Shown here: positions 16,901 to 62,088 of the stretch, piece after piece
Position numbering within the stretch: the first letter of the stretch is position 1
Layout: each line of letters begins with the position of its first letter
DNA from: Sclerodactyla briareus
Taxonomy: Eukaryota > Echinodermata > Holothuroidea > Dendrochirotida > Sclerodactylidae
Assembly: GCA_026419785.1 (NCBI GenBank)
Contig: JAODTK010003921.1
Coordinates: 1 to 64,000 of the forward strand
Direction of reading: 5' to 3'
DNA: 64,000 nucleotides
Translations under genes and position numbers: made by a program
The notes under the pieces: generated by a model
Told to the model about the DNA's origin: nothing
Seen by the model: only the letters and a program-made list of their open reading frames with translations
The model's database searches: none

Positions 16901-16939
16901 TCATATGAATCAGATAACGGAGTGTTACTACCACCTTAC

Positions 16940-17287
16940 GATTTGCCCAAATGTCCAGTGTTCTTGATGCCGGCTGATTTGGTCCAAATATCAATTACGA
17001 TTGTGGTATGTGAATGGTGGAGAGTTCGGGAGGATATGTAAACCTCACGGTGCGTTAACAGACACGTATCAACATATGTACCAACCCAATGAAGAGATGG
17101 GTTGTGTTCACTGGGCAAAATTTGGCCCTAAGTTGTCCAAGGAGACATGTTGAATATCACTGAGGGGTAGACGATTAGAAATCCCATTCGTGAAACTGTC
17201 GTAAAAACGCGAATATGTCCTCCAATCACCGAAGAAAATGGCCGTCACAATCGATTGAACCCCCCCCCCCACCCCCCCCCCCCCCCG

Positions 17288-17321
<34 letters not shown>

Positions 17322-17565
17322 ACCCAATAACAGTAGCTGCCTTCGTAGTTCTGACGATACAACAACCGACAATGATTTCTGTAGATTCCTTCCTAATTAT
17401 CATCCCCATGACTTTCTGCAAGACAGTATAAACACCTCGACTTGCAGTTATATCAGCCGGCGTGGAACCTTTCCTGATTGTAGTAGATATCAAAACGAAT
17501 TTATGACCTCATATACGTACATGGGACAGGATGCGGACTTCGGCATTCTGTCTTGTGTCTGATAC
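16940..17565 (+). pseudogene. Alpha-type receptor ectodomain (Ig-like, degenerate)
   Basis: Reading the plus strand, 17,440-17,552 gives CSYISRRGTFPDC and, further on, YMGQDADFGILSCV. The spacing of an early Cys and a later D-x-D-x-G-x-x-x-C is what the end of an Ig fold looks like. An earlier stretch (17,000-17,135) reads LWYVNGGEFGRICKPHGAL and may be another piece. The two are separated by a 60-base poly-C tract, so they may be different exons. The TM-encoding copy follows directly. The Ig assignment rests on weak motifs; an unrelated secreted domain is possible. Confidence 0.35.
17261..17322. repeat. Poly-C tract (~60 bases, nearly pure C)
   Basis: An almost uninterrupted C run with a few A/G interruptions. 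It creates artificial poly-Pro and poly-Gly frames. The opposite strand is G-only and could form G-quadruplexes. Length is probably uncertain in the assembly. Confidence 0.9.
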
Positions 17566-17790
17566 AAAAGATGGGACTTGGAAATAACGAGGCTGATTCA
17601 ACAAAAAAGTACAACGGCGACAGCTACTATCGAACGACTGGCAACCGAGTCCGCCAGCCATGCGGCCAAGTCATCCCAGCAATACGAATCGGGTCCCAGG
17701 CAGGTCGGTATTGATTCTCCTAATAGTGATTTTAGTGATCAGTGTATATTTCTGCAGAAAAGAAGCGGAGAAAAAGAAGTCACTTGACTT
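17566..17790 (+). pseudogene. Alpha-type receptor copy 2: Ser/Thr stalk and TM
   Basis: 17,578-17,700 encodes a Ser/Thr-rich stalk (STTATATIERLATES). After a one-base shift, 17,715-17,760 encodes the helix ILLIVILVISVYF followed by CRK and a basic, Ser-containing anchor. This is the best preserved alpha TM segment. The tail unit is missing because the next tandem copy starts at ~17,790. It belongs with the Ig-like end at 17,440-17,552. Confidence 0.5.
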
Positions 17791-18250
17791 GCAGGTTATA
17801 TCATTAGGCGGGAACCTTTCTCTGACTTGTTAAGGGATATCCAAACGCATTTATGACCTCATATACATGGAACATGATGCGGACTTCGGTAATTCTGTTC
17901 GTGAGTAGAGGATACACGACAGGGAGTTTGCTGGAAAATTCCGAGGCAGCTTCACAAACGTAACCGGAACGACTTTTTCCGTGAATTGTACAGTCGTCGT
18001 CGAGTTGAAAAATACAACTGCGGACCGCTGCTATTGACCGCGTACTCCAGCGACTGCCGTCATCCCTTCAGCAATACGACTCTGGATCCGCGGTCTGGTT
18101 TTGTGATTCTACTCGATCATAGTTGATTTCATTATCAGTGTATATCTTTTGCAGAAAGCGAAAAAGTCACTTGACCTACAACAGACTAGCGATGAACAAA
18201 TGGTTACTTAGAGCTTTGCTGCGAAATCTACCACTTAATGTTCGCTGATA
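17790..18250 (+). pseudogene. Alpha-type receptor copy 3: tandem duplicate of Ig end, stalk and TM
   Basis: 17,790-17,905 repeats the Ig-like end of 17,440-17,560 ('atttatgacctcatatac', 'gatgcggacttcgg'). It continues with NVTGTTFSVNCTVVVELKN (17,960-18,020), which looks like a beta-sandwich strand with an N-glycosylation site and a Cys. A hydrophobic segment with IISVYLLQKAKKSLDL follows (18,120-18,175). The last part corresponds to copy 1 downstream of its TM. Several frameshifts are present. Confidence 0.45.
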
Positions 18251-18289
18251 GCGATGTTCATCCAATGGGTTTGTGTACTAATATTATTT

Positions 18290-19540
18290 CGGACTATGAA
18301 CATGATCAATTAGTGTCGATGCCACTGATCGCCATACGTAAGAACTTACCACTTCTTACTGTGCCACTGCCTGTCATGTACACATTAAATAATACATCCG
18401 TATCTACATGTTTTTTATTTAGTTCATTTAACAGTTTGTATTTGGTACTTGTGACCATATACAATCAAACCAAAGCAAAACCTGTTTTGGCAACCTCTTA
18501 CAGTCGAAATGAAACTGAGATCCCTCATAAGTTTTGAAGAATATGGCAAAACATTTCGCCTTCTCTCTCTACCATCAGGTGGGCAAAATTATGGCCGATT
18601 TAGTTGAAGAGACTTCGAGTGGACATTGCACTGCTTCTAGTCGTGACCTACACTCAATGTATATACGTGTACATGCGTAAAATCTTCAATGTTTATCTTC
18701 CTCCCTCCCATTAATTTTTTCCACGTTTTTGCTTCAATATTCCCCATTAATGTTATATCTGTTTTTGAAAATGACAATTCGAGAAGATTGACCCCTTTAT
18801 GGCCCTTCTGCTTCACTTCTTCACAAAACGATGGACGAACTAATGTGTTATATTCCTGTTAACTGTCATCTATACCAGTATATAATATTAACTTACACAT
18901 GTGTATTTACGCCAGGAAAGGAAAATAACAATACCACGTACACACTACGCTCATCGCGACCCATAACGGTAAGAAGATCGTGTATGGTTGGCCAAAAGGC
19001 TCTTGTCATTGCAAACAGGCCCACGGCCATAACTATGCTCACCACGACCATTTCGATTGACGAGATCGTGGGCATAGCCCCTTCCACACCCACACTTCCT
19101 TGACCCCTACTGCCCTCATCACGACCATTACGATCAAACGGATCAACACAATCGTGGCATAAAGCCTAAGACCCCTTTAGAGGGGGGGGGAGGGTGGTAG
19201 GGCCCGGCTCTACTACTTTAGTTTTTATTCCTTCCGAGGCATTTTTTTTGCAGTCTTGTTTGTGCTTATGGGCGTGCGTGGCTGGATGTGTGTTTGTCAT
19301 GTTGTGTGTGACCTTCTTGTCAGCACTATATCTTAACGAACGCAAACAGGTTCAAATTAGGCATGTTGGGTTCTCAGTGGACGATGAACCCCTGTTATTT
19401 TCCGTGTCAGTTCCACAGTACTTCAAGGTCACGACAGTTCAAAAAAAACCTTGTCATCACTATATCTAACGCAGACAATTTTATTAAGTTTATATATTAC
19501 GTTATGTCGGTTCCACTGTAGATGTGAGTTTTTCGTCCAG
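18290..19540. repeat. Spacer paralogous to 54,640-55,845
   Basis: It starts with 'ccactgatcgccatac.' (18,325 and 54,661) and continues collinearly through 'cgccaggaa.ggaaaat', 'gtatggt.ggccaaaaggctcttg' and 'cataaagcctaagacccc'. Plus and minus frames of 90-100 codons here are not maintained in the paralog. Confidence 0.6.
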
Positions 19541-20650
19541 GTAAGTTTCGAAAGATTGTCTCAACGCGGTTCGTGCAACATCGACCGGCCGGTTTATCCT
19601 CATGACCTTTACACAATATCATTATCATACATTTGCCATCGTGCGAGGCTCATAGCAGTCGCATACAGCCATGGTAATACAAGGTACACGCTGTATTCGT
19701 GTTGTTTCTCTCTGTCATTTGAACTATGCTTCATCGCCAGTATCTGCACGGAATTTTAGGGACACAAAAATATTTCTACTTCATTACACGACCCAACTTT
19801 CTTAATTCTGATAAGTGTTTTGTATAAAGTCTTATGGAGGGAGGGAAATATGACAATTTTGTTTTATTCCTCGTCCACACGATCTTCGGAAGGTGAAAAA
19901 GTTGTGCTTGCCTTATCGGACGTGTAGTTTAACCTTCATCTTTGTGCCAGAAGTTTGTTCGTCATCAGTAGACACAAATTGTTCTTTGTGGGTACAAAAT
20001 GTTGAGGCACCAACCACGCTTTACTCGTAGTGTTGCGGTCAGCGGCGTGATCCCATATGCTGCATCTCCAAAGGAATTCTCCGACTATCACTTTGGGATA
20101 TTATCTAGGAAAAAACTCTATGAACCCCTAGCTGGTACCGAATTGAGGATCTGTCCAGGAATCCTAGGCTGAGCCTCCTCATGCTCAGTGAGTAGGAGGA
20201 CGTAGACATCTACAAGAAAGGAATTAGGCCTAAACGAGAAGTCCCAGTGCTCCCGGCCACGACAGATACATGTACCTATTCCGCTTCGACCCTCCGTTGA
20301 GTTGGAGAAGTTGGTAAAATGTCCAAAAATGCTTTCCAGCACTCCGCAGGATCTCCCACTTCATGTTCACACAAAGCAGCTATGAAACATACCGGTAATA
20401 TTAACGGCCTGTCCATGTTTACTACTTTGTATTGGCAGGGTCACTGCAGAAGCTGTATATCCAGAAATAAAGCACTATCATTGTGTCTTAATTATTCAAT
20501 CTCACTCGGTAATTCGTTTTACAAGCACAACGAAATAGGGTTGCAGCTTCACGCGTGTATTTTTACGCTTGTTTCAGGCTTTTTTTTCGGTTATTTTCCC
20601 ACAGCCTATCACCCTTCGTGTATACTTACGGTCCTCTTCTGGCGCTACCA
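19540..20650. repeat. Spacer module, copy 2
   Basis: This is the second copy of the 4,590-5,745 module. It is uninterrupted at 20,110-20,150, which is the reference used to see the insertion at 56,493-58,032. Confidence 0.65.
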
Positions 20651-20679
20651 TCTGCCCTATACTCAGATCCTCACCATAG

Positions 20680-21250: not shown

Positions 21251-22740
21251 TCATAAATATTATGTTCCAGCTTAGACATCTCTGTACCGTATCGTCCGCC
21301 CCACGTCGGTTCATTGTGGGTTTTTTGGTTTAGGTTTTTCACACAATGTCACGCGAAGCTCACCATGGCAATGAATTACAAAACTGAATAGTTTTATGGC
21401 TAGCGGCTACTGTAGTATAGGATACGTGAGAAAATGCGGGCTTCCGCGCAGCATTCACAGTAACACGGGCGTTTCCCAAATCTCGATACATTACCTTACG
21501 CAAATGAAATAACATGCCTCAAATTTGTCGCAGTAACGGCCCTATGAGAAGCTCCTTCGACAATGTGAAAATGAAACTAAGTTGTTTTCTTGAAAGCCCT
21601 TCAACAAGTTGTGATTCAAGGAACTAGAAGATGACTAGAGTGGTAGTGTTCCCATACGTGGATGATGTGAATACCTAAGTGAGTGGACAGGCCGTGGCCA
21701 GGTAGGCTCGAAGTAAACTCACAACTATATTTGGCATTATATTAAGGAGCAGATGCTGCTTGTAGAGTTGCAGGCATTAAGAGTCAAATACTCAACGCTG
21801 TTGCACGGAAACTGGTGTGGTATTTTCCCGCAGCTACCAAACCTCCGTGGCAACGCTTGTCCTTATAATACCTATTGACCAACTTCTTCTCTTTTCCTTT
21901 CTACTTCAATAGGCGTAGATTAGGGTTAATATATTATTGTTTAAATGTTTTCTTGGTTATAGACATTACGTTGATTGATATTTTTTACTTCTGATCTTCA
22001 TATAACATTATCAGGCCAAATGTCCCACATCTATAGAGAAAAGTCATTGGTTTATATTGTTCTAGAATAACTGTCATTAGCTCGTAATTATCTAAGATTA
22101 TTTAAATATCCCATAAGATTATTAGATCATTAGTAGCCTATTGCATTTCACTAGAGGTTGAAAAGTTTGGAAGGTGGAAGGGGAACAAATCTTGGGTAAT
22201 AGATATTAGCCAATGGTCGGCAGTACGACACGATAACTCGAACAAAACATGAACGGATCAAGGCCCCATACTAAGTATATTGCTGTGCCCCATAATAAGA
22301 CAGGAACCCGAGGTTCAGTCAGAGAAAGAATACAAGTTCAAGAATATGGACACCTAACTATATATTTAAAAAAAAATTGATGTAAATGAGAGGTATGGTA
22401 CTCATTGGTATGAGTAAAACAAAAAAATGAGGATGTACTTCTGAGGTAACTTGGCAAGAAGAATGTTTTTTCAAGTGTGATTTTCACATCAAGGAGTAGG
22501 ATTTTGAGAAGCTATAGAAATAGTGCTCACGGGGGGGGAACGGGAGCTGCAAGAGAATATGCAACTTTGACTCATTAGTTAGCCTATGCATTTCAATAGT
22601 TTATGTGTCTTCAATTACTTCCGATTGCCAACTATCAGAATATTCCTATTGTGAATGCCCCCCCCCCCCACCCTTCCATAATCCATAACATCATACGGAA
22701 CGTTTAAACTGTTCCGGAGGAGAGAGGGCGGTCGACAAAA
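21251..22740. other. Intergenic spacer upstream of a beta unit
   Basis: No gene is recognised in 21,251-22,740. The part 22,140-22,740 matches 43,390-44,150 and 58,880-59,280, for example 'gatgtaaatgagaggt', 'gaggtaactt.ggcaagaagaat', 'cctattgtgaatg' and then a C run. 21,640-22,140 is AT-rich and unassigned. Confidence 0.5.
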
Positions 22741-22769
22741 ACGATGAAATCCCAACCTGGCGAGTTACT

Positions 22770-23270
22770 CCGTTGGCATGTAAGAGTAATTTCCAGTTTA
22801 AGGAACGTGAGGGTTTTGGGGTCACCTTGAATGACCTGAGGGTCAAAAACATCAAAGGCAGTCAAGAAATCTCTATGCTCTTCGGCCTTATGGTATTTCT
22901 TCCATTGGCGAAATGCCAGACCGAATTTTCGCTAACACGTTCAAGCGGATGGAGCACAATCAAACGAACCTGTATAATGGCAACATGTATTGGGACATGG
23001 AGGGGGACTACATCTGTCACTACAATGGAGAGGTACACCGCAAAGGTCCTCTAGTGATTTCGATCATTGTGAGGAGCTTGCTTGCCTTCTGTTGATATAT
23101 TCTCTTTGTAATTCATACCCACACTGTTATTGCGTTAGTGTTCGCCAAAACAAGATAACGGCTAATCTGCAGCAACGCATAACGAAAAGCAGAAACGGCG
23201 CAAGAATGGTAACTCGACTCTGTGTTCCTGCATTAGAGTTTTCTTCCGCTTGGCGTGAACTGCTATAAAA
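22770..23270 (+). pseudogene. Beta unit, copy 1: short secreted or membrane protein
   Basis: ATG at 22,875 opens a good signal peptide, MLFGLMVFLPLAKCQ. After one frameshift the 22,913 frame gives NQTNLYNGNMYWDMEGDYIC and then GPLVISIIV, the start of a hydrophobic stretch that is best preserved at 59,590. DMEGDYIC resembles the D-x-G-x-Y-x-C end of an Ig fold, but only ~35 residues separate it from the signal peptide, too few for a whole domain. A basic region (TANLQQRITKSRNGARM) follows. It lies directly upstream of gamma-B. The family is not recognised. Confidence 0.45.
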
Positions 23271-23760
23271 TTGAATTGTTCATAGTGCATGTGTCAACAG
23301 CTACTGATATTAATAACGATGAACCGGACATAATAAAAAAATAAATATGCTGTTATCCATATACTTACCTTTACCTGGAACCTACGATAAGTGGAAGACG
23401 CGTTAGTGTTAAAATTTCAGATTGTGCATTAACTGAACGCTTTAGACCAGTTCTATGTTTAGAACTTTCCAATAGTAGTAGTTTGATCACAGAGCATGCT
23501 TAGTCCGGCTATAATATTATTATCGTAACTCCGACAATTAGTATTTGAGTGAGACTTAGAGCACGATGAACTAGGTGCACTGACTCGAGAGATAAGTCGT
23601 GTATATAGGGGGAGCAGAGTAGAGCATTATTCCTCTGAAATAATCGGTATGAAAGGACTCGGGAAAGTGGATTTGACATGAAATCTAAAATTTGCTCCAT
23701 TGTCCCTCGCTTCTGAGTAGAGCGTTAAACTGTCTCTTCGATGCTTCACTCGAAAGGGGT
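23271..23760. repeat. Beta-gamma linker shared with 59,830-60,500
   Basis: 'attttgagtgagacttagag' and 'tcctctgaaataatcgg' recur at 60,294 and 60,372. This is presumably gamma promoter-proximal DNA. A minus frame of 63 codons (23,509-23,700) is not preserved. Confidence 0.55.
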
Positions 23761-23833
23761 GTTATATAGTTGCAACAACCAATCCTTAAACAGTTCGCCG
23801 GATAGTTTTAGACGGTAAATTGTTACTGTAACA
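23761..23833 (+). promoter_or_regulatory. Candidate gamma-B core promoter with TATATAG
   Basis: TATATAG at 23,763-23,769 lies ~70 bases before the candidate ATG (23,834). The stretch 'ccaatccttaaacagttcg' between them is identical at 60,520-60,538 upstream of gamma-E. Conservation between paralogs may simply reflect recent duplication. Confidence 0.35.
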
Positions 23834-25400
23834 ATGATCTACACGGATGATTTACGCCACGTATCTGCAGTGCCGTATTGGGACCGGCCAACTATAACTG
23901 CACTTTAACACAACAACATATGGAAACGAGCCAGCTACATTGCTGATGCTGGAGACGCTGTCCTCCTAACCTGTGAACCCCCGGATGGAAAAAACCGATG
24001 GGAATGTGAACATCAAGGAGATCCCGTGATTAACGGGGGAAGCGGTTTCAACACTGGTAGATGATGGTAGATTGGGAGAGACGTGAACAAAACATCCCAA
24101 CAAATACCATTTGAGATAGCTGTAATACCGATGAAGGCCTTTGGGTTGGTGATTTTAAAAAAAACTTATCGAGGTCGCGCGGAACCCGTTATTATTGTGA
24201 GTGTCAACTGTGGCGTTGGTACTTATTTTTCATCTGGAGGAATCTCAAAACGTACGTTGACCGTTATGTTTCTGCGCGAGGTAAAGTTATCGGCTTTGGT
24301 ACACTATCAGCTGGAGTGCAGAGAGGACTTTTCACTGATGGTGAAAAATTGAAAAAATTGATTTTTTAAACTGTCCTATCCCGAGATAGTGCAGGTGAAT
24401 TGACGAATGAGCAAAAAATGCAGGTAAGTGACAAGCAGTGAGCAAACCACGATCATTTGTGACGTTACGCGGTAAAAACCAACACCAACGGTCTGCGTTC
24501 AACAAAATGTGGATTACTGTGGACATTCGAAAGTATAACCAGTGTTTTACAGAGTCCTAGTAGTTTCATTAATGCCGTCGAAGGGAGTGATTAGAGGAAG
24601 GGGAAACCGCACCTACATGCACCTGGTAATCACAGTCGGCTTGACTCTGTTGAATGGAGTGGAGTGACAACTACTCTCCGAGGGAACGTATCATCGCTAT
24701 AGGGGAAACATCTCGAACGGAAGTGTGCTAGAAAAAGAAAAATCAGATTTGCGAATGACCGATGGGTATCTTATAAATTGCACTGCAACACTAGATTCGA
24801 AGGTGGAAGTGCGCAAGCTCGTGTGTGGACAAAATATAGAGTTCGCCATCGTCACGGCAACCGATCGGGTGAAGGGTGACAGATCACACACCGTGGCCGT
24901 AGTCTCTCGCTCCCACGTCCGCCGAGAATTGAATATGAGACGGGAGATAGATGGACCAGGCAGTTTTATCTGGTATCCGATTGGCTTCTGTTTTGTTGTA
25001 ATCGTGATTGGTCTGTTAATTTCCATGTTATATATCACTGGAACCGACGAAAGCTGAGACGCGTGGAACAAGGTAGCCGGTAGAACTGGGACTGGGAATT
25101 GTGACGTCACGGAAATGACGAAAATGGGGTTATCGCCGAGCGAGGCAGAAGTTACACGAACGAAATGTCCTAACCCATACATCCCGGATAACGAGGACAC
25201 CGAAGTGACGCGGATGGGTTTATCGCAGAACGATGCTGAGGTAGAAACGAACGATATGTACGAACCGTACGTCCCGATGAAGGAATACCGAAACGGCTCA
25301 ATCGCCATCGTGAAAAAAAAATCCCGGGAGGGTTGTGTATGAACTAGTGTCTTAATCGATTCCGAAGAAGCCGAGTACGAGTGCAGTTTCAAATGCCCCA
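23834..25400 (+). pseudogene. Gamma-B: Ig-Ig-TM receptor with tyrosine-motif tail, frameshifted
   Basis: A paralog of gamma-E, read in pieces. First Ig domain: GDAVLLTC near 23,950-23,973, 'STLVDDGRL' near 24,050, and a YYCECQLWR-like end near 24,190-24,215. The Cys-rich linker and second Ig start follow at 24,360-24,620. The second half of Ig2 is MLEKEKSDLRMTDG to INCTATLDSKVE (24,725-24,805). The TM helix is IGFCFVVIVIGLLISMLYI (24,975-25,035). Two tail units lie at 25,115-25,290 (MTKMGLSPSEAEV; MYEPYVP). The last bases read GRVVYELVS then stop, which fits ITIM spacing. No introns are needed. There are at least six single-base frame changes. Confidence 0.65.
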
Positions 25401-25559
25401 GTCTCTATACCGTAGGGATATGACTCCGAGTCACGAATCCGGACGCGACTACAGCATATGAACCATACGTGGTTCGAGTTAGGAGACTAGTTTACACAAC
25501 ACGAAAATAATATGACTGCAAAAGAGCAGATTTATCCCTAAACGTCGGTTTTTGTTATT
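25401..25559 (+). repeat. Gamma-B 3' region, conserved with 62,090-62,320
   Basis: 'tcgattccgaagaagccgag' and 'cgactacagc.tatgaa' recur after gamma-E. The text EEAEYEC and ATTAYEPYV is reminiscent of tail units but lies after the stop in both copies, so it may be an old extra tail unit now untranslated. Confidence 0.45.
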
Positions 25560-29040: not shown

Positions 29041-29048
29041 TATCAACA

Positions 29049-31030
29049 ATGGTGTACATCGGATTCCTTTACGCCTCATTCTTACGCAGTGCCGGATTTG
29101 TGACAGGGCACGATATAAAGCTTTTCTTCAACGAGTCAAATCACCAAGTTCGCAGAGGTTTCCCGGCTGGAATTGACGGCGGGCGATCACCGTTGTTGGA
29201 ACCTGATGAACACCAAGTGCAACTACGAAATTTAACATTAGGAGAACGTTGACGACTTGAGAAATGGTGCCGGTGTTACATCAAGTGGACCAGAATTTTC
29301 AACGATATCGCTTGGAAAACCGAAATTAAAACGAATATAGATTGGTAATTTCAAACATGACTTCTGGATAGAATCGGTATTGGTGTGAGTGTGAAGGAGG
29401 CGCCGGTTGTATTTTTTGGAGAAGTAACACGGTGTAGTTGAGATGTATGTTCGGAACGAAATGAAGTGATGGACTATTGTATATTATCGAACGGAAGGAT
29501 GGATTGTTCTTCAGTGATGAAAAAGTGAACGTAGGATGTCCTAGTTTGGAAGGTTTCGAAATAAAAAGCCGGTAACCGCACGATATATAGCCAGTTGGAA
29601 GTAAACAGTGGACAGCACCAAACATATTACATGAATCCGTAAAACGTAATGCCTTGAACAACACGTAAACTGGGTTGCATTGATGAACAAAGTAGTATTG
29701 TAGATATTCCAAAGATAACAGTTTACAATTCTTTGTTACTTTCAGTGACGCGTTACGGACAGGTATCACAAGGAAGGTGCAAGCTCACTTTAGCATGCTC
29801 TGAACATCCACAGTCACCGATGACATTGTTTGACTGGAGCTGTTAGGAGGGTAAATTACTCTCTCGGTTGGAAAGATACGGAGATAAGAACAATGAATGG
29901 GAGGTTTCGATGCTAACAAAATCACCTTGCAAATGTAACTAGCAGCGCCATCCTCAGCTACTGTACTGGCAAAGCTAGGGTCGAAGTCAAATACCACAGG
30001 GGCTACAATAATACCAGACCATCAAACCACATCCAATCCCCCATTGGTGGCACCAATGAGACTGTGGGACGAATTCTCCAGTTTATCAGGAGCTGGCCCA
30101 CAACAAGTTCAATCACCCGAACTATGCCGCAGCTTTTCGACCCAGGGTTATCCGTCAGTAATGTAACCGGAATTGATTCAGGAAGCCATATCTGGATATT
30201 CACCGGACTTCGGATATCGTGGTTTCAGTCGTTCTATTATTATTCATCAGATGTACCGGAATCGGCAGAAGCTAAGGCGCACGGACAAAGTTGCAGAATC
30301 TTCAAGTGGGGTAGTCGGAGTGTTGGAAGATAGTGACGTCAGAAAAATGACAGATATGGGTTTATCGACGAAAGAAGCCGAGGTAGCAACGAACGAAATG
30401 TACGAGCCGTACATCCCGGAACGAGAAAAAAAAACAACGAAATGATGGGGACGTGGTTATCGTCCAGCGGAGCTGAAATAGCAACGAACGAAATGTACGA
30501 GCCGTACATCCCGGAACGAGAAAAAACAACGAAATGATGGGGACGTGGTTATCGTCCAGCGGAGCTGAAATAGCAACGAACGAAATGTACAAACCGTGCA
30601 TTCCGGAACAAGAGAACAACGAAATGATGGAGACGTGGTTATCGCCCAGCGGAGCTGACATACCTACAAACGAAATGTACGAACCGTACATCCCGGAACA
30701 AGAGAACAACGAAATGATGGAGACGTGGTTATCGCCCAGCGAAGCTGAGATAGCAACATACGAAATGTACGAACCGTACATGGGGTAAAGAGAAAACAAC
30801 GAAATGGTTGAGATAGTTTCCATCATCGAGCGAAGGTAGGGTTAGCACGAACGAATTACGACCCGACCTCCCTGCGGATGGAAGTCAGAAATGAACGGAA
30901 ATGGTTTACCACGGAATGATGCTACAATGTAGTAACGAATGAAATATACGAACCGACATTCCAGAGAATGAAACTATTGAAGGGACGCCAAACGCGCTGA
31001 ATCGCGGAGAAAGGCGTTTTGGACTATACC
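29049..31030 (+). pseudogene. Gamma-C: Ig-Ig-TM receptor with expanded repeat tail, frameshifted
   Basis: ATG at 29,049 opens the signal peptide MVYIGFLYASFLRSAGFV, equivalent to MMYHGLIHATVLCSALFV of gamma-E. The first Ig ends at 29,340-29,385 with RLVISNMTSG then NRYWCECE. The second Ig appears at 29,775-29,905 as KLTLACSEHPQSPMTLFDWS and RYGDKNNEWEVSM. A weak TM lies at ~30,190-30,250, then KLRRTDKVAESS (30,268-30,303), identical in type to gamma-E KLRRVDKVAESS. The tail has one unit at 30,339-30,430, then units of 90-92 bases to ~30,797 and two decayed ones to ~30,970. An in-frame stop at 30,786 sits in the fifth unit. No introns are needed. The relative with the closest layout is gamma-D. 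Confidence 0.65.
30339..30970 (+). repeat. Coding minisatellite: gamma-C tail units of 90-92 bases
   Basis: Unit starts are near 30,339, 30,436, 30,528, 30,618, 30,708, 30,798 and ~30,890. Each encodes (N)EMM.TWLS..GAEI.TNEMYEPYIPE. The middle units are nearly identical at DNA level, the outer ones diverged, as expected for unequal exchange. Every intact unit supplies a YEPY tyrosine pair. Confidence 0.85.
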
Positions 31031-33940: not shown

Positions 33941-35310
33941 GAATTGTTCAATAACTTATTCTTCATGGAAACTACATTCGTTTCTTCGAATTCAGTAATG
34001 TGGCTAAGGTGTGTTTTACTAATATTATGTGTCGTCCGTAATATTTGTCCTGTACCGGGAGAGATAAGAAAAAAAACGAATATATACTGTCATCTTTCCG
34101 AGACCCATGGAATGTATTCAACACGTATGGTTTTTCTTATATAATCGTTCAGCATGAATACATACAACAAAAAAATCTTTTTGGAATCTTTTTCAATGGG
34201 CTGCATATGTGAGAGGGCATCTGTACTGTGAGCGGGCAATATAGCGCTATCAACAGTTATTCTGAACTACAGCGGCTTGCAACAATTATGCCTGAGTACC
34301 TGTGTATAGTTTGCTGGAAGCATTGGTTTTCGAGGATTCTGTGGGTTCGGCATTCCCGTCTTCCCACCTCAGGAACTGGCAGAGAGATATATACCCGGAC
34401 GAATTGCAAAACGTCGAATGTCGGGATATATCCAATCACCGTTAGTGTAATCCCGTGTTTTTCATCCAAGTTTTTTCATTGGCAGCAATAATGTATCTCA
34501 CACTCATTTCGTCAACCATTTTTCACAAACACAACTGTCCGTTCGTGACAGGAACGTTATAGCGTTGTTCTTTAAAACCATTCATTACACAACCAACGGG
34601 CAACTCTTACCATGCGAGGAAGGCGGTACGTCGTTTTAAAAAAAACCTCGTAGAAAAACGCAATGTACTAACACATTAATAAATCGTTGAATGTCAACAA
34701 ATGAACGCCCAGTCGTGGTGGAGGTGGTTTTTCCACAATAGTAGATAGTGGTAATTGGTACTTAGGAAGGAAGTGAAAAACACCAAGGATACAATCTGAG
34801 AAGGACGGTGATACTTTAGGTTGGTTAATTTGATATTATCTGCCTCCAGGTGAAACCGTTTACAACACCTTTGAGATGTCATTCGCGGGTTTGAAAGATT
34901 CCTAAAGTACGTTGATGCTCGCCTGTCCTCAGACGACAATGAAGATTTGTGTTGGGGACTTTTGTATTCTCTCGAATGGAGAAGATGGATTTTTTTTCGG
35001 GGATAAGTATATTCTAAATGTTCTGTAGGAGGAATCGTATTGAAAGTAGGTAACCAGTCAATTAGAAATGTGACAAGAAAAAGTGGCAACGAACACAAAT
35101 AATGCCTGTTGGGCAACGTTAATGTGGCAAACAACAGTAGATTGAACGGCATGAACAAAAGGTGAATTATTGCGACAACCTTCCTATTATAACAGTGTAC
35201 AACTCTCTGTTTCGGTAATGCCGAATGAGATGTCAGACAAGAAGGTGCGAATGGACTCTACATGTACGAGCTATCCGGTCAATGTTCTCAGTAGTGATAT
35301 GGGTGCGGGA

Positions 35311-36590
35311 CAGTGGCGGCGGAAGCCTACAAATTTAGGGGGGGGAAGCCAGCACAACATTTTGCTGAATTGAAGTGTGTTACTATCTAAGAGGAGCGCC
35401 ATTGGTTGGCGCGGTCGTACAAGAAAATGTTGGTTTTACAACTACCAGATGGCCGGAAACGACACTTCCTGAGCGTTTGGGGCTATATGTACCCAGTTAT
35501 AAAACTGGGTATGTCTGCAAAATGGTAGTTATAATAAAATGGAGGTATGAAGGATGATAATGCATATCAGATGGGTTTGGAGACAGCAAATCCCGCGGAG
35601 GGAGAGCCGGTAAAGGGATGTCACACACGATTTCATACACTACAGTGAACTTTTGCAGTGCAATGATCGAGAATGAGTAATTATTGGCTCACTCAGTTAG
35701 CCCCTTTCCCGCCCAGTTGGCCATTCCACAGGGTCAAGTGGTTAGCGATAGACTTGCAGTTGTTAAGGGTGTAGGTCGACTACCGTAGGTGGTTTCCTTT
35801 TTCCGCATTTTACAATAAGTGACCAACTAAGTGAAAAATTATTACGTAAGTTCAGAAGACACCAAAAGTGGTGTCTTGAAACGTACGTAAGACCTTTCTC
35901 ACTTGATGAAGTTTCGTAACAAACAGGGATCAAGGTGTAGACAATGTTATTGTTGTATCGTAACATATCTGTAAGCAATTCTACAGTATACAGTTCGATG
36001 CATAAAATCATGTGTTTTGAGTGTCTTTTTATTTGAAACGTACGTAACACATTAGCCAGACAAGCCATTTCGCAAGATAGTAATGCTAAATTCATCACAG
36101 GACATGTCAGTTGGGGTCTTTAGTCATGTTCAATCATAAAGCGGAACTAAAATTGCAAGCATCACTTTTCTGTGTTAATCTAAGGACTATTTTTTTTTTT
36201 TCAACTGTCCACTTTTGTGAGCTGAGTATTGTGGCCTTTGTACCGTGTGAACAGCGGTGATTATTGGCCATCTTGAATCTTTATTGTTACGAGGAGGTAA
36301 ATATTTCCCAATCGATTACAGATTTCGCTACCAGCTGCGAATATTGCAGACCAGGCGGTGGGCAACGGTCGGTCGGCAACTTGTGTGAACTTAGAAAGGA
36401 TAATAGTTTCACTTTATTAGGGCTCTGTATAATAGTATTGTCTATATTCCATCATTGTTCCGCAGAGGATAAGAGCACGACTTAATTGTCGTATGTTGGT
36501 GTTATTTTCAATTTCATTCTGGCAAAGTTTTAGGGAGGAAGGACCCCCCCCACTCTGAGTTTTTTGGAGGGGGGGTGTGTCGATAGTAAA
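35311..36590. mobile_element. Insertion inside the gamma-D Ig2 coding region
   Basis: Gamma-C reads continuously through this point, while gamma-D is split by ~1.3 kb. The insert starts CAGTGGCGGCGGAAGCC plus a G run. At 35,385-35,435 it has 'tatctaagaggagcgcc' and 'gttggcgcggtcgtacaaga', matching 56,547-56,590 of the insertion at 56,493, so both belong to one family. The right end is probably near the C run/G run pair at 36,544-36,577. A 60-codon frame at 35,375 is inside it and has no known domain. Confidence 0.55.
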
Positions 36591-37089
36591 CTAACATAAG
36601 CTTCCCAAATGCATATATTTAGCGGGATGTTATCTCGATAAACTGTACTGCAAAATTCTGAGGTCGAAAGTAAATGCCACAAGGGCTACAATTATGATAG
36701 GCCTACACCACGGACTATCCTCTCAAAGCCACCATCAACTGACGACCACGTGACAGAGTGTTTATTTCCCAGGAATTAGCTCACACAGTGTACCACCGAA
36801 CCACGTCGCAGCCTTTCTTCCAGAGTTAGCTGATGGTTATGCAACATAAAATGTCGCTATATCGGCCCTTATTGGTATATGATAGGGTTTCTAGCTATCG
36901 TGGTTGTTGTTTGGTCCGGTGAATATTCATCATTTCAGTCATTTTGCAACGAACCAGAGACTAGGACGACCTCTTCCCTTATGGCCACTTGGTGGAGAAT
37001 CTTCAGGTGAGCCAAGTCGGATAGCAGAGGTTTGGTGTATCGAGTCGCCCGCGTAAATGACCCTGGAAGAGGGGTTTACGCCCACGAAG

Positions 37090-37760
37090 CCGATCGCTTT
37101 TGTTGGCGTCCGCGATTACGACATTTACGAACCGTACATTCCAGACCAGGAAAACCTCGAAATGGTGGAGATGGGGCTATCACCGAGTGAAGCCGACTGG
37201 CAACAATGACGAAAGTACGAACCGTACCATCCCGGTACAAGACACAAAGGTATAGGTTCATAGTAACGGAAATGGGTTATCGTCGCGCGAGGCTGAGAAA
37301 ACAAGAACGAAATAACGAACCGTACAAACCGGAGCCAGAAGGAAAAGAAATGACGGCAGATGGGTAATTTTCGAGGAGAAGAAGATGAGTGGTAAACGAC
37401 ACGCGAAATGTTCGCGAGCCGTATCTCCCGGAGGGGAAAGGAGGCAACGAAATGACGGAGAGGGGTTTATCGTCGAGCGAGGAATGAGTTAGCAACGAAC
37501 GAATGTACGAACCGTACAACACCAAAACAGAAGAAAGAAATGTTGGGATAAGATGGGTTATTCGGAGAAGCTGAGGTAACTGAGTTTCGGTTGGTAACAA
37601 CAAGCGAAATGTGCGAAACCGTTACCTCCCGGAGGAAAGGAGCAATCGAAACGCTGTAGCATAGATTATCGTCGGGGGATGCCGATTTTACAACGAACGC
37701 AATATACGAACCCGACTGGGCTTCTTGCTAAACGATGCTGAAATTGCGAACAACGTCGTG
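37090..37760 (+). repeat. Coding minisatellite: gamma-D tail units
   Basis: YEPY-coding 'acgaaccgta'-like sites recur at ~37,124, 37,213, 37,316, 37,412, 37,505, 37,609 and 37,705. Units are more diverged from each other than in gamma-C and carry several frameshifts. Confidence 0.75.
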
Positions 37761-37770
37761 TATGGACCAT

Positions 37771-38850: not shown

Positions 38851-38859
38851 TTTTAATAA

Positions 38860-46990: not shown

Positions 46991-46994
46991 GAAA

Positions 46995-53265: not shown

Positions 53266-53269
53266 GAAT

Positions 53270-53524
53270 GGAATCGGAGACCCAGTACGGTGATCGATCT
53301 CAGCAATACGAATCTGAATCCCGGCTGTTAGTTTTATTCCTCATAGTGATTTTAGTGATCAGTGTATATCTTTGCAGAAAGCGAAAAAAAATCACTTGAC
53401 CTGATCAACAGACTATAGCGACTACACAAAGTGACGGCAAATCGAAGGAGGATGCAATTGCAGAGAGAATAAAGATGGGTTTATCGCTCAACGAAGCTGA
53501 GATAACGGAGAACGCAGTCCATGA
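53270..53524 (+). pseudogene. Alpha-type receptor copy 4: TM and one-unit tail, ectodomain deleted
   Basis: 53,340-53,400 encodes, with a shift, the helix followed by YLCRKRKK and SLDL. 53,431-53,524 is open as TDGKSKEDAIAERIKMGLSL, then NEAEITENAVHEPC and a stop. This is the cleanest alpha tail and shows its kinship to the gamma unit (MGLS..EAE.T.N..YEP), with Tyr replaced by His. The Ig-like exon present at 17,440 is absent: spacer matching 16,800 joins directly to sequence matching 17,685. Confidence 0.55.
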
Positions 53525-54690
53525 GCCTTGCTAAAAATGAGATAATAATTGGCATTATCTGTTTCAGATCCGCGAGAGCAATGTTTTCTTCGTGAGGAGA
53601 GATCTTATTTCAGGTCGGTAAGGTCTATGTAATTGGATGAGGTCTCGTCTCGAATCTGTTACGTTTACACGAGTACTCGGTAAATCGGACAGGAAACAAA
53701 TGAAATTAGGTTCCATGAAAATTGAGAGATACCAATTCCGATCTGTGGCTTCTAAATAAGTCGGAGAGTGATTGGGAATTCAACCTTAAGTTTTGTACTT
53801 GCAGTGTTTATGTAAGCAGCAACGACTCGGTATCCTGCAGCTAGGCCATGTTCATTTTCAAAAAAATCGAAAGAGAGGATCAGGTGTGAGAAATTTATGA
53901 GATCGGAAATCTGGGAAAGGCAGACATTTGAGACAAAACAAACCCGCATGTTTTCACAAGCTTCTTTTACAGTGAATTTCGGGAAGCTTGTTTTTCGTTT
54001 AGATTAGGGGAGCTAGAACCTTTTGGGAATTCATTCGCGTTCATTGTTCATATTTTAGCCGCGACCATTACACGTGTACGCACCTATCGTTTCGACATTT
54101 GACAATCAATATTACTGCAAGTTAGTTCTTTGCACAGTGTTTTAAAGGAAAATGATGACGGCCAATTGGGAAATGTGCCCTCTATATCCTCAAGTGAACT
54201 CGGCCTGACACAATTTCAAAGCATTTCATTACATTTCATAGCGCAGAGCGGTCATCCCCAAATCTGAAAACGAGTCCAGAAACGTCACAAGGTAGATAGG
54301 CACGTCTTGGAAGACTGGTTGGGTGCAAAATAACCATAATTCCTGATCCTAATCCCCAACCATAACAAAAGATAACAGCTACAATGCAATACCTTCCGAA
54401 GCAGTGCGCACTAGCTGACATCATATGGGTTGTGTACTGAATAATTATTTCAGGACGTATGGATCCTAAACTTATCAATGTTATTCCTGTATTTAAATGC
54501 GAAATTTAACGAACAAAGACAGCAAAGTACGTACCATAGTTTGAACGCAGTCAGTTAAATTGACGATTTCTCTTTCTCACTTCCATTATTTCTTGATGGC
54601 ATATATTGCTCATGTCACCGAATAAATCCATAATACATGATACAATTAGTGTCTGAGCGCCACTGATCGCCATACAGTAAAAACTTCCAA
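53525..54690. repeat. Spacer after alpha copy 4, uninterrupted
   Basis: Matches 480-540 plus 1,967-2,880 with no insert between. Contains the empty site used to define the element at 541-1,966. Confidence 0.6.
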
Positions 54691-58032: not shown

Positions 58033-58555
58033 CTTCCTGGAACGATTGAGGATGTCATGGACTCCTAGCTGCGAATTCCTCAATCGCATGTAAGTCAGGG
58101 AGGAACCGGGGGGTAGAATCTACAAGAAAGGAATTAGGGCCTAAACGAGAAGTCTCCGTGCGCCCGGGCCACGACAGCTACACGTAACCCTCTTCGACCC
58201 CTCCGTTGGAGTTGGAGAAGTGGAAAAAATGTCCAAAAATGCTTTCAGCACTCCGCAGTATCTCCACTTCAAGTTCACACAAAGCAACTAGAACATCAAA
58301 TTATGGCTGTTCCCTGGTTACTTAGTTTGTATTGTCAGTGTCACTGTCGAATCTGGAATATCCAGGAAACTAAGCATCTATCACTGTGTCTTAAGTATTC
58401 GATATTACTCGGGTAATTCGTTTTACAAGCACAAAACGAAATACTAATTTACGCTTGTTTCAGGCTGGTTGTTTTTTGGTGTATTTTCCCCACAAGCTTC
58501 ACGCGTCTGTATACTTACAAGGTACTGCCACTATACTCAGATCCTCACCATAGTC
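58033..58555. repeat. Spacer module, copy 3, second half
   Basis: Matches 5,215-5,740 and 20,130-20,650. Confidence 0.6.
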
Positions 58556-58715
58556 TTCGTTCAGAGGTTGGCTCTGAAATCATAGGACATCATGGTCCTT
58601 TCAGCATTTATCCAATCTCCTTTCAAATAATTGAAGGCTGATAGAGGTAATACCCGTCTTGTAGGCGTTCCAATTATTGGTGACTCTATTCGTATTCTTA
58701 CGATTGTTATCTCTC
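58556..58715 (-). mobile_element. CR1-like RT C-terminal fragment, copy 3, truncated
   Basis: Only the last ~160 bases of the element at 5,760 and 20,680 remain; similarity stops at ~58,715. Confidence 0.5.
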
Positions 58716-58795
58716 ATGGTCCCGAAGGGCCAGATGAGATAGTGTAGTCACTTTGCCGTTTCAACCTATATTTTTTTTGTTAAAACTGTTTGCTG

Positions 58796-58820
58796 GTTGC
58801 CATAGCAACGGTTGCTATGG
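58796..58820. promoter_or_regulatory. X-box-like palindrome (RFX-type)
   Basis: GTTGCCATAGCAAC (58,796-58,809) fits the RFX X-box pattern GTnRCC-N2-RGYAAC. CCATAGCAAC is followed after one G by its exact reverse complement GTTGCTATGG, giving a 10-bp stem. It lies at the junction where the RT remnant ends and the beta-upstream spacer begins. Function is unknown; such palindromes also occur in transposon ends. Confidence 0.45.
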
Positions 58821-58829
58821 TCAAATAAT

Positions 58830-59285
58830 GGTTTTTCGTCAAATAAACTGAATTTTCAATGAGGAGTAAACATGATTTAATTTTCAAGACAATATCGACA
58901 CTCTATTTAAAAAAAAAATCTAATTTGATGTAAATGAGAGGTCTGGTACTCATGGTATGAGTAAAACAAAAAATAGGATGTTAATTCCGAGGTAACTTTG
59001 GCAAGAAGAATATTTTTTTTCAAGTTTGATTTTCACAACAAGGACGTATGGATTTGAGAGCTACAGAAATAGTACTTACGGGGGAACGGGAGCTTGCAAG
59101 ATGAATGTGCAACTTAGCTCATTAGTTAGCCTATGCATTTCAATAGTTTATTTTTTCGCATTTACTTCAGATTGCATCTATCATAATATTCCTGTGCATG
59201 CCGGCCCCCCCCCCCCCCCCCTCTCTCCTTCATTAATCCCTCAACATCATACGGAACGTTTAAACTGTTCCGGAGGATAGAGGGC
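58830..59285. repeat. Spacer upstream of beta copy 3
   Basis: Matches 22,350-22,760 and 43,705-44,170; contains a C run at 59,204-59,221. No gene. Confidence 0.55.
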
Positions 59286-59289
59286 GGTC

Positions 59290-59805
59290 GACCAAAACGA
59301 TGAAATCCCAACCTGTCGGATTTACTCCGTGCACGTAAGAGTTTATTCCAGTTTACGGAACGTGGTTGTTTTGGGGTCGCCTGACTGACCTGAGGTCAAC
59401 AAACATCGAGGTAGTCAAGGACTCTCTATGTTCTTCGGCTTTCTGGTATTCTTTCCATGGCGAATTTTCAGACCGAATTTTAACGAACACGTTCTCCCTG
59501 ATGGGCTCAATCAAACGAACCTGCTATAATGCAACATGGCTTGGGATATGGAGGGGGAATACATCTGTCTAATACAATGGAGAGGGTGCACCTCGCAAAG
59601 GTCCTCTAGTGATTTCGATCATTGTGGAGAGCTGCTTTGTCCTTCTGTTGATATATTGTCTTGTAATCATACCCACACTGTTCTTGCGCTAGTGTTCGCC
59701 AAAACAAGATATGGGCATCTACGAAAACAGAAACGCGCAAGAATGATATACCTCCGACTCTGTGTTCCAGCATTATGTTTTCTTCCGCCGTTGGCGTGAA
59801 CTGCA
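59290..59805 (+). pseudogene. Beta unit, copy 3
   Basis: ATG at 59,428 gives MFFGFLVFFPWRIF, a signal-peptide-like start. 59,505-59,575 holds NQTNLL then AWDMEGEYICLIQW. 59,591-59,680 reads GPLVISIIVESCFVLLLIYC and then LVIIPTLFLR, the clearest TM helix of the three beta units. A basic, Arg/Lys-rich end follows (LRKQKRARM). At least two frameshifts. It sits ~770 bases upstream of gamma-E, as copy 1 does before gamma-B. It may be a small accessory membrane protein or a displaced 5' exon; the family is not recognised. Confidence 0.5.
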
Positions 59806-59829
59806 CTTATGAATTGAATTGTTCATATT

Positions 59830-60499
59830 GCATGTGGGTGTGCGTGCTTTCAAGGCATGCGTGTCAACGCTACTGATATAAGAACTTTGAACCCCTGACA
59901 TATACTTCTAAATTACGAAAGACATGCGTGTTATCCATATACTTACATACCTGGGACATACGATACCGGGAACTACTGTCCGCTATATACACTTCGCCGC
60001 GTGTGCATAATGAACTGGAAGAGTTCGCCATTCTGCCTGTGAATACTGAAGTTACCGCAATTCTGTTGTACAAGATATATCTGTCGCCTGTTGTTTATTG
60101 AAGGAGTTTTTGCACGAACAGTCACTCCACTTCCGCGCTGAACATTCGGACACAACTGACGTGTGGCCTGATATAACAGGAGAAACGTTTTGTCGCTAAA
60201 ACAGTAGTATGTTCGAACCTTCTAATCGCATTTTTGTTTTATACAGTCTTGCTATTCACGTATCATAATATTATCGTAATTCTGTACAATTAGCATTTTG
60301 AGTGAGACTTAGAGGATGTACTGACTTCGAGGGACGAAGTCGTTCATCTCAGGGGGACAGAAGCATTATCCTCTGAAATAATCGGTGATTTCTGGAAGAC
60401 TTGGTTACAGTGGATTTAGCTTGAAATCTGAAATTGTATCCATTGTTCTCGTTTCTGAGTAGAACGGTCTGAACGTCTCTTCGATGCTTCACCCGGAAG
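59830..60499. repeat. Beta-gamma linker, copy with full beta-3' segment
   Basis: 59,830-60,170 is the third copy of the segment at 6,720 and 44,880. 60,270-60,500 matches 23,500-23,760. Minus frames of 60-70 codons in it are not preserved. Confidence 0.5.
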
Positions 60500-60577
60500 G
60501 TGTTATATAGCTTGCAATACCAATCCTTAAACAGTTCGCCGGAGTGTTTTAGACGGTACACTCGTCAACGTCATCCA
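60500..60577 (+). promoter_or_regulatory. Candidate gamma-E core promoter with TATATAG
   Basis: TATATAG at 60,504-60,510 is ~70 bases before the tandem ATG pair (60,578 and 60,581). The block through 'cagttcgccgga' is shared with gamma-B at the same distance. Confidence 0.4.
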
Positions 60578-62088
60578 ATGATGTACCACGGATTGATTCA
60601 CGCCACCGTACTTTGCAGTGCCCTATTTGTTTGAAGGGCAAACTATACCTCTGCAATTTAACACAACAACATATGGAAACGAGCACAGCTACACAGCTGT
60701 TGTTGGAGACACTGTCCTTTTAACTTGTATCCCCCCGACTGGAACCATACGGAATGTGAATATCATTGAGGAAAGCCGTGATTACGGGGGAGTGGCTTCA
60801 ACACTGGTAGATGATGGTAGATTGGTAGAAGACATTAACAAAACATCCCAAAAATACCATTTAGAAAGCCGTTATGACGGTGAAGCCTATGAGTTGGTGA
60901 TTTCGAACTTATCGCGCGGAGCTCGTTATTATTGTGAGTGTCAACTGTGGCGTTGGTATCATTTTTTAGATTTTTTCATTTTTGGAGGGATCTCAGAACG
61001 TACGCTGACCTCTATGTTTCTGAGCGAGGTAAAGATATCGACTTTTGTACACTATCGAATAGAGGGGAGAGGGTACTTTTCACTGATGAAAAATTGATGT
61101 TAACTGTCCTATCGAGATAGATGCAGGTGAATGCGAAATTGCGCAAAATGCGATGAGTGCAATATGAGCAACACGACCATTTGTGAAGTTACTGCGGTAA
61201 ACAACACCAAGCCGGTCTGCGTTCAACAATGTGTGGATTACTGTAGGTACCTTCCGATTATAACAGTGTACAAGTCCTTAGTAGTTTCAGTAATGCCGTC
61301 GAAGGGATTGATAGAGGAAGGTGGAAACCTCATCCTCACATGCACCGGGTAACCACAGTCCGTTATGACTCTGTTTGAATGGCGTTGGAGTGACAACTAC
61401 TCTATCGGGGAGAACGTCTCTGCATGGGAAACATCGAACGGAAGTTGGCTAGAGTAGAAAATCAGCTTTGCGAATAGAACAGATGGTCACATCCTTATAA
61501 ATTGCACTGCAACACTAGGTTCGAAGGTGGAAAGTGTGCAAGCTCGTGTGGAAGAATATATTACGAGTTCGCCATCGTTACTTTCAACCGAAGATCGGGT
61601 GACAGAATCACAAACCGTGTCGCAGTCATAGCCTCACGCGTCAGCCGATGAATATGAAACGGGAGATGACCAGGTCAGTTATATCGGTATCTGCATGTGT
61701 GCTCTGTTTTGTTGTAATCGTGATTGGCCTGTTAATTTCCATCATATATCACTGGAACCGACGAAAGCTGAGACGCGTGGACAAGGTAGCCGAATCTTCA
61801 TGTGAGCGAATCGGAACTGGGACACATAATTGTGACGTCACAGAAATGACGAAAATGGGGTTATCGCCGAGCGAGGCAGAGGTTACAACGAACGAAATGT
61901 ACGAACCGCACATCCCGGAGAACGGAGACACCGAAGTGACGCGGATGGGTTTGTCGCAGAACGATGCTGAGGTAGAAACGAACGATATGTACGAACCGTA
62001 CATCTCGGAGGAGAGGGACACCGAAATTGGCTCATCGCCAATCGCGGGAAAAATTCCCGAAAGAGTTGTGTATGAACTAGTGTCGTAA
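60578..62088 (+). CDS. Gamma-E: Ig-Ig-TM receptor with two tail units and C-terminal ITIM-like motif
   Basis: The best preserved receptor, ~500 residues with no intron needed. The ATG pair gives signal peptide MMYHGLIHATVLCSALFV; one surplus T at ~60,629-60,632 shifts into the 60,618-61,097 frame. There the V-like Ig has GDTVLLTC and, 69 residues later, ISNLSRGARYYCEC, with N-glycosylation sites NTT, NKT and NLS. A Cys-rich linker (61,110-61,250; CAKCDEC, CVQQCVDYC) leads to Ig2 (GGNLILTC at ~61,323-61,346; INCTATLGSKVE near 61,505). 61,648-62,088 is open: TM (residues 11-34 of that frame), NRRKLRR anchor, units with MYEPHIPE and MYEPYISE, then VVYELVS stop. Likely a cell-surface receptor signalling through phosphotyrosine. 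Three to five frame changes remain, either assembly errors or decay. Confidence 0.72.

Follow-up and report, generated by a model that had tools for sequence, protein, structure and literature searches.

In this study, we propose that the analysed stretch of 64,000 nucleotides (the window; C2350:1-64000, on a contig of a 319-Mb eukaryotic assembly) belongs to a cluster of tandem, intronless genes for type I immunoglobulin superfamily (IgSF) receptors that evolves by birth and death, in an animal genome of invertebrate-like character. Most copies in the window would be decaying, better ones lie just outside, and the receptors would work in recognition and signalling; we consider this reading as a whole rather probable. 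The four gamma (A, C, D and B) and three alpha copies in the window belong to a single receptor family and are all encoded on the plus strand (Table 1). Past the window, the cluster extends as far as 110.8 kb, in about three megaunits with an offset of 34-42 kb, and the two better copies are found there, a gamma-2 copy at 64.86-66.84 kb and an alpha copy at 91.29-92.58 kb. In a search of the assembly all tail matches (10/10) and all ectodomain matches (22/22) fell on this contig, and at the sensitivity of the tools the rest of the assembly yielded no relative. The tandem plus-strand cluster described in the sequence-only reading is thus confirmed, with each gamma copy and the alpha pieces located and the matches confined to one contig. 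A COX1 search of the assembly returned 0 matches.

Table 1. Receptor copies and tail arrays in the window, with the interruptions counted in each copy.
Feature	Position	Strand	Content or basis	Frameshifts, in-frame stops (codons)
Alpha copy, truncated by window start	2..399	+	End of third Ig domain, TM (CRKRKK anchor), one tail unit	9, 2 (122)
Alpha copy	16837..17791	+	V part, D2, D3, TM	17, 3 (277)
Second partial alpha third-Ig-domain fragment, adjoining the preceding copy	17795..18019	+	Peptide matches C2350:92060-92285	
Gamma-1 copy A	23898..25352	+	V, D2, D3, TM, 2 tail units	14, 5 (422) vs gamma-2 reference; 23, 1 (434) vs copy B
Gamma-2 copy C	29049..30996	+	Signal-peptide-like start through tail of ~7 units	24, 5 (620)
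Copy C tail-unit array	30384..30813	+	90-bp YEPYIPE units; TRF, 4.7 copies	
Gamma-3 copy D	34488..37769	+	Split by ~1.4 kb that does not align (an insertion of 473 codons in the alignment); last tail unit ends 37769	29, 5 (573) vs 71k copy
Alpha copy, remnant	53300..53531	+	Nothing but TM (CRKRKK anchor) and one tail unit	3, 1 (74)
Gamma-1 copy B, best-preserved window copy	60578..62088	+	V 60621-60968, D2, D3 ~61209-61559, TM ~61690-61746, 2-unit tail, C-terminal VVYELVS	5, 3 (467; alignment to 62025)
Copy B tail units	61855..62025	+	2 x 90 bp; TRF, 1.9 copies	

The entire region is a tandem segmental duplication whose repeats are 68-83% identical in DNA whether coding or not, and the similarity among copies of the same type is therefore partly due to duplication rather than to selection. 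Haplotype duplication was rejected, since the copies share one contig at this level of identity. The truncated alpha copy at the window start is 85% identical in DNA to C2350:92186-92585, and the next alpha copy contains a poly-C tract at 17260-17325. A repeat near 22.4-23.3, 43.6-44.6 and 58.9-59.8 kb was considered as a signal-peptide/Ig exon and dropped, as no frame was constrained in the two copies compared.

The receptors follow one plan: signal peptide, V-type Ig domain, four-cysteine D2, C2-type Ig domain (D3), stalk, transmembrane (TM) helix and a tail of YEPY units. The stalk is rich in Ser, Thr and Pro, with an Asp-Cys-Gly in gamma-2 and alpha, and a basic juxtamembrane segment lies between the TM helix and the tail. 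In the two best models, the gamma-2 copy at 64.86 kb (663 residues from 1984 nt, seven 1-nt frame changes, no stop) and the alpha copy at 91.29 kb (432 residues from 1293 nt, six frame changes, no stop), introns were neither seen nor needed, and the genes are apparently intron-free. Hydropathy peaks of 2.5-3.2 in all three scanned models (these two and copy B) agree with the TM helix noticed earlier. The signal peptides claimed in the same reading hold for gamma-2 and alpha, whose models lie outside the window and reach the threshold of 1.6, but not for the N-terminus of copy B, which contains an internal frame change and scores below it. The N-terminus of copy C, which was not scanned, reads like that of gamma-2. 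Of the proposed TM-proximal anchors, NRRKLRR or NRQKLRR occurs in A, B and C and CRKRKK in the alpha copies at 0.2 and 53.3 kb, but neither is readable in D. We abandoned an earlier reading in which a single frame stays open between D3 and TM of copy C, because the aligner places the stalk of this copy in another frame.

Membership of the immunoglobulin superfamily is supported by profile matches and by conserved residues. Searched against the PDB, a profile of the V domain gave 1269 matches at E<=1 (best E 2.4e-5), and the best 60 of these 1269 are all antibody chains or fragments by name. The Pfam family 'ig' matches gamma-2 D3 with 22.9 bits, above its cut-off of 21.8, and V-set matches the alpha V domain with E 2.9e-5 and 24.7 bits, below its cut-off of 26. 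The window copies alone stay below the Pfam cut-offs for Ig, and in PDB searches with window pieces Ig proteins made up 5/7 and 20/21 rows, all weak. When one member of each of the four types is compared, C259, W272 and C314 of D3 are invariant, four cysteines are conserved in D2, and the cysteine pair of the V domain is present in the gamma types and absent from alpha. Both the Ig-type family and the V-like cysteine spacing of the first reading are hereby borne out. D2 of alpha, gamma-2 and gamma-3 gave neither a sushi nor an Ig match in Pfam. For a window V domain, a single weak AF2 model was obtained (pLDDT 56.8); its best 50 Foldseek matches are mostly antibodies, nanobodies, TCR and CTLA-4, with T4 gp9 at rank 18 and none at E<=0.001, and VIA-align of this weak model ranked T4 gp9 first.

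The tail is composed of 30-residue units with the core GLSxxEAEVxTNEMYEPYIPE, of which alpha carries one, gamma-1 two, gamma-2 about seven and gamma-3 several. A tblastn search of the contig with the copy B tail recovered A (E 1.6e-31), C (3.4e-17) and D (4.5e-7), which together with the 90-bp TRF repeats corroborates the repeated tail unit. No Pfam family matched the tail above cut-off. Pfam matches to SoxE (E 0.004) and DUF7511 lay under the cut-off and were taken as chance. At the sensitivity of the tools, the tail and the alpha protein have no relative in a set of 5.8 billion proteins, and none was confirmed in GTDB and IMG/VR contigs. The description of the family as undescribed is provisional, as annotated animal protein databases lay outside the search; the original interpretation is partly upheld, with the Ig-type family and the tandem cluster supported. 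An ITIM has the form [ILVS]xYxx[ILV] in a cytoplasmic tail, and an ITAM consists of two YxxI/L, 6-12 residues apart. An ITIM-like VVYELV is found in gamma-1 B only; at the end of copy A the peptide VVYELVS is readable in a frame other than that of the tail units. VVYELV is not readable in the gamma-1 copy 103k, and the scanned gamma-2, gamma-3 and alpha readings contain no ITIM motif. Two YxxI/L/V/M were found in none of the readings scanned for an ITAM, their frames joined by the aligner (gamma-2 64.9k and C, gamma-3 71k and 109k, gamma-1 A, B and 103k, alpha 91.3k).

Between types, dN/dS is 0.33-0.56 (16 pairs, copy D left out). In five between-type pairs, the plus frame of ectodomain and TM gives dN/dS 0.35-0.55 with 0-3 stop-containing codon pairs, against 0.74-1.1 and 26-41 in the +1 and +2 frames. 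These values indicate that purifying selection acted on the family in the past. Repetition of the region irrespective of coding, and the long antisense ORFs that overlie the tails, would suit a region of chance ORFs or non-coding segmental repeats. The frame-specific dN/dS, which rules out chance or antisense coding, the avoidance of stops and the Ig profile matches contradict this, and the single antisense frame that looks constrained shares its wobble positions with the sense frame; as regards past coding this explanation is already refuted, and we give it practically no credence. Within types, dN/dS rises to 0.55-0.84.

Every copy is interrupted, with frameshifts throughout. A GH31 pair on the same contig, strongly constrained (pN 0.076, pS 0.515), has 4 and 8 frameshifts in 381 and 377 codons (1.0 and 2.1 per 100 codons), and in an HSP70 exon pair one copy has 3 in 88 codons and the other 0 in 92 (3.4 and 0). 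Since the constrained GH31 pair is frameshifted as well, the assembly is indel-rich, and decay as the sole cause of the frameshifts was rejected on the evidence of this pair and the one HSP70 exon copy. Such an assembly can easily make live genes look dead, which is relevant to any scan of immune clusters. Relative to the nearest reference, the frameshifts per 100 codons amount to 5.3 in A, 5.3 in 103k, 5.1 in D and 3.9 in C, above every control in these four of the eight long gamma copies, and to 2.9 in 71k, above GH31 but not above the HSP70 exon; the counts vary with the reference, a nearer one raising A from 14 to 23, 103k from 15 to 24 and 109k from 9 to 11. In addition, A and B have an in-frame TAA in D3 in common. 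Assembly error as the cause of all frameshifts was rejected because of this shared stop and of the four copies exceeding the controls. These two observations, combined with the within-type dN/dS, suggest that most window copies are probably decaying.

The same evidence could be extended to the whole cluster, which would then be dead or nearly so: the family would have been functional when alpha and gamma-1, -2 and -3 diverged, would have decayed around and after the megaunit duplications, and no copy would make protein. The interruption of all copies, the four copies above every frameshift control and the A/B stop are what such a graveyard would leave, and the polarised N/S ratios (at least 0.8 in 14/22; 0.70, 0.86 and 2.14 for the good gamma-2 copy) point the same way. 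With 7 frameshifts in 655 codons and 6 in 426, respectively, and no in-frame stop in either, the gamma-2 copy at 64.86 kb and the alpha copy at 91.29 kb nevertheless fall within the control range, as judged by references read from the same copies, and unit 1 of the two gamma-2 copies has a dN/dS of 0.24, in just 30 codons. We regard complete decay as unlikely, yet as an explanation of some weight.

Ig receptors that are clustered and carry tyrosine tails are found again and again in unrelated animal self/non-self systems. From its plan, an immune, allorecognition or other self/non-self function is plausible for the partly decayed receptor cluster that we favour. The V domain would bind a surface ligand; on receptor clustering, a Src-type kinase may phosphorylate the YEPY tyrosines, which would then dock an SH2 adaptor, and VVYELV would recruit an SHP-type phosphatase. 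Because each YEPY phosphotyrosine would dock an adaptor, we propose that the number of units could set the gain of the signal. The more specific model, an undescribed complex of recognition receptors encoded by intronless tandem genes, in which the types share a ligand-binding plan, unit number (1, 2 or ~7) encodes signal strength and gamma-1 is inhibitory, is speculative and in this full form unlikely. If true, this intronless family, which lacks detectable relatives and whose tail tyrosine units can be counted, would add an independent case to such systems, and a simple one in which to study how signal strength depends on docking-site number.

A working family might also serve outside immunity, in cell adhesion or in neural or developmental recognition, with the tail units as docks for adhesion signalling. 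Adhesion molecules too combine an Ig ectodomain with a tyrosine tail, and the weak PDB matches of D3 include ICAM-1, DCC, contactin-2 and JAM. However, tandem expansion, copies that are in part dead and a rapidly changing ectodomain are more typical of immune and allorecognition families, and a non-immune role seems rather doubtful to us.

Still less likely, in our judgement, is an allorecognition complex comparable to the Botryllus fester co-receptors (FcoR) or the Hydractinia Alr. The FcoRs of the Botryllus schlosseri fuhc locus are described, in the portion of the account available, as having a signal sequence, IgV, sushi, two C2 Ig domains, TM and a long tail with ITIM, hemITAM and core tyrosine motifs; they are clustered, fast-evolving and alternatively spliced, and Botryllus receptors are described as birth-and-death (PMC12065747). 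The present receptors resemble them in the signal sequence, the N-terminal IgV, a second module, a C2 Ig, the TM and the long tyrosine tail, in their clustering and fast evolution, and, in gamma-1 B, in the ITIM-like motif (PMC12065747). They differ by a single C2 domain, a four-cysteine D2 lacking a sushi match in Pfam and the absence of any intron seen, and by tandem 30-residue YEPY units, of which this portion makes no mention (PMC12065747). Moreover, Pfam identified no paired fester-like or HECT E3 gene among the 133 ORFs in the window that reach 82 aa or more. The Hydractinia symbiolongicarpus Alr complex, compared by description only, is likewise an IgSF cluster (41 genes, V-set plus I-set), with ITIM- or hemITAM-type motifs on candidates; the excerpts that describe it make no mention of YEPY units in tandem (PMC11999971, PMC12065747). 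Fish NITR and NILT, according to partial accounts, likewise form clusters or multigene families of V-type Ig receptors whose tails are of ITIM or ITAM type, but have one or two Ig domains (PMC2442602, PMC3022915). The receptors described here have three ectodomain modules and YEPY units, and gamma-1 B alone carries the ITIM-like motif in frame, A having it in a different frame.

The sequence-only reading had proposed a tandem cluster of Ig-type receptors with repeated tyrosine-unit tails, all on the plus strand, and both points are borne out. On contig C2350 (JAODTK010003921.1; 237,406 bases, of which the window is 1-64000, in an assembly of 319.5 Mb and 3171 contigs) every copy located is on the plus strand, and the four types of the family recur in the order alpha, gamma-1, gamma-2, gamma-3. 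Genome-wide matches are confined to this contig, both for the tail (10 of 10; 19 first-look candidates scored) and for the ectodomain (22 of 22; 26 scored). Tandem segmental duplication, at 68-83% identity in self-comparison, accounts for a large part of the window, and the contig holds about three megaunits offset by 34-42 kb. An element of ~0.8 kb occurs at five sites (window 22363-23293, 43.6-44.6 kb and 58904-59836; C2350 77.9-78.8 and 101.4-102.2 kb), three of them at most ~1 kb upstream of gamma-1 genes; two of its copies, when compared, lack coding constraint in every frame. A C-rich tract of 66 bp (window 17260-17325) lies within an alpha copy, and a G-rich tract at window 3906-3944.

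Receptor copies (tblastn and frameshift-tolerant aligner) and control genes, with codons/frameshifts/stops
Copy	Position on C2350	Strand	Count	Count, nearer reference
alpha 0k	0-0.4 kb	+	122/9/2	
alpha 16.8k	16.8-18.0 kb	+	277/17/3	
alpha 53k	53.3 kb	+	74/3/1	
alpha 91.3k	91.3-92.6 kb	+	426/6/0	
gamma-1 A	23.9 kb	+	422/14/5	434/23/1
gamma-1 B	60.6 kb	+	467/5/3	
gamma-1 103k	102.5 kb	+	439/15/7	450/24/3
gamma-2 C	29.0 kb	+	620/24/5	
gamma-2 64.9k	64.9 kb	+	655/7/0	
gamma-2 106k fragment	106.2 kb	+	96/5/0	
gamma-3 D	34.5-37.8 kb	+	328/14/8	573/29/5
gamma-3 71k	70.4 kb	+	580/17/5	
gamma-3 109k	109.2 kb	+	496/9/2	502/11/1
GH31 pair (YihQ/sulfoquinovosidase type, inverted, 82% DNA identity)	146183-147343, 165451-166617	+, -	381/4/1, 377/8/1	
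HSP70 exon pair	another contig		92/0/0, 88/3/0	

The clearest models, gamma-2 at 64,857-66,840 (1984 nt, 663 residues) and alpha at 91,285-92,577 (1293 nt, 432 residues), both lie beyond the window and have the same module order: signal peptide (MVYIGFLYATILASAGFVTG in gamma-2), V-type Ig, four-cysteine module D2 (conserved cysteines 149, 169, 218 and 226, gamma-2 numbering), C2-type Ig D3 (C259, W272, C314), a Ser/Thr/Pro stalk containing Asp-Cys-Gly, one TM helix, basic anchor and tail. No intron is seen in these two models, since their pieces differ by small frame changes only, while alignment of the remaining copies needs codon insertions and deletions too. D is interrupted by ~1.4 kb of foreign sequence and 109k is without D2. 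The start context AACAATGG is common to C and 64.9k, and TCATCCAATGATGTAC to B and 103k, where a TATA-like site precedes it by 74 and 80 bp. The stretch spanning and following the stop codon is 99% identical over ungapped positions between A (window 25339-25422) and B (62072-62171), above the 65-91% of other 100-column blocks; this may reflect gene conversion, or else conservation of a 3' element.

The tail unit spans 30 residues (90 bp by TRF). Its consensus was drawn from 20 units hand-picked from read-throughs, one row being out of register (five of seven each from 64.9k and C, two each from A, B and 103k, two of ~6 from 71k and a single unit each from alpha 91.3k and 53k; D, 109k, alpha 0k and alpha 16.8k left out wholly), and its commonest residues are L 19, S 19, A 20, E 19, N 17, Y 16, E 16, P 19 and Y 15. 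YEPY is intact in five of the seven units of 64.9k. In B, two units are followed by a C-terminal VVYELV, which fits the ITIM consensus; in A this peptide and the units lie in different frames, and 103k gives no readable version of it. Paired YxxI/L/V/M motifs were absent from every reading scanned.

For the tail, Pfam gave zero families over cut-off. Against the protein set, the tail gave nine candidates, none at E<=1, and the alpha protein 7995 scored candidates, none at E<=10; pattern matches in GTDB (20) and IMG/VR (48) yielded zero confirmed. These missing relatives are weak evidence of novelty, because neither GTDB nor IMG/VR is built from animal genomes and the protein set may cover animals incompletely. 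Family membership is supported no further than the immunoglobulin superfamily.

Past constraint was estimated by Nei-Gojobori on 28 pairs (16 between types without D, seven within type, five of D versus another type). Between-type dN/dS is 0.33-0.56, a rough range as pS reaches 0.7; D gave 0.36 and 0.42 in two pairs and no value in three. In five between-type pairs the values were 0.74-1.1 for the +1/+2 frames and 0.68-1.34 for two of the antisense frames. The antisense frame whose wobble positions coincide with those of the sense frame gave 0.35-0.61, mirroring the sense value and accounting for the long antisense ORFs. Together, these values indicate that the type ancestors were proteins under purifying selection, the aligner's bias toward protein-like solutions being removed only in part by the frame control.

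As assembly-quality control we used the GH31 pair, located on C2350 like the receptors. Its differences fall mostly in third codon positions (43, 23, 127; pN 0.076, pS 0.515), i.e., constraint is strong, yet both copies are broken by 1-2 nt indels. With the HSP70 exons, this indicates that the assembly itself probably adds false frameshifts, on the order of 1-3 per 100 codons. 64.9k, B and alpha 91.3k lie inside the GH31 range (1.0-2.1 per 100 codons), 109k (1.8-2.2) at its edge and 71k (2.9) inside the HSP70 range only; the rates of A, C, D and 103k (3.9-5.3) are higher than in any control.

Some results speak against function. A and B have a TAA in D3 in common, at a position that is a sense codon in all five other readable copies, and on this ground gamma-1 was probably dead before the two split. 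Within-type dN/dS is 0.55-0.84, and polarised changes give 0.39-2.14 over 22 lineage estimates (18 at 0.65-1.1; 14 at least 0.8), the better-preserved gamma-2 copy, 64.9k, itself contributing 0.70, 0.86 and 2.14. These values fit decay as well as diversification of a live family; maintenance is not demonstrated.

Most likely, the cluster would represent germline recognition receptors under birth-and-death, with the repeated tyrosine units serving as putative docking sites; beyond domain anatomy, we infer every step, recognition and docking alike. The systems closest in plan are the Botryllus fester co-receptors (PMC12065747) and Hydractinia Alr (reviews PMC11999971, PMC12065747; Podocoryna preprint PMC13119343), and by analogy a similar working is plausible.

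The window is eukaryotic in look (43% G+C, CpG observed/expected 0.93, no tRNA found, zero Rfam matches at gathering score). Among first-look candidates scored, COX1 had zero matches in the assembly and HSP70 matched contigs C2424 and C11 only; given this outcome, the assembly may be incomplete. Further along the contig, C2350:221167-234119 carries tandem repeats of ~1.47 kb with 74-81% identity.
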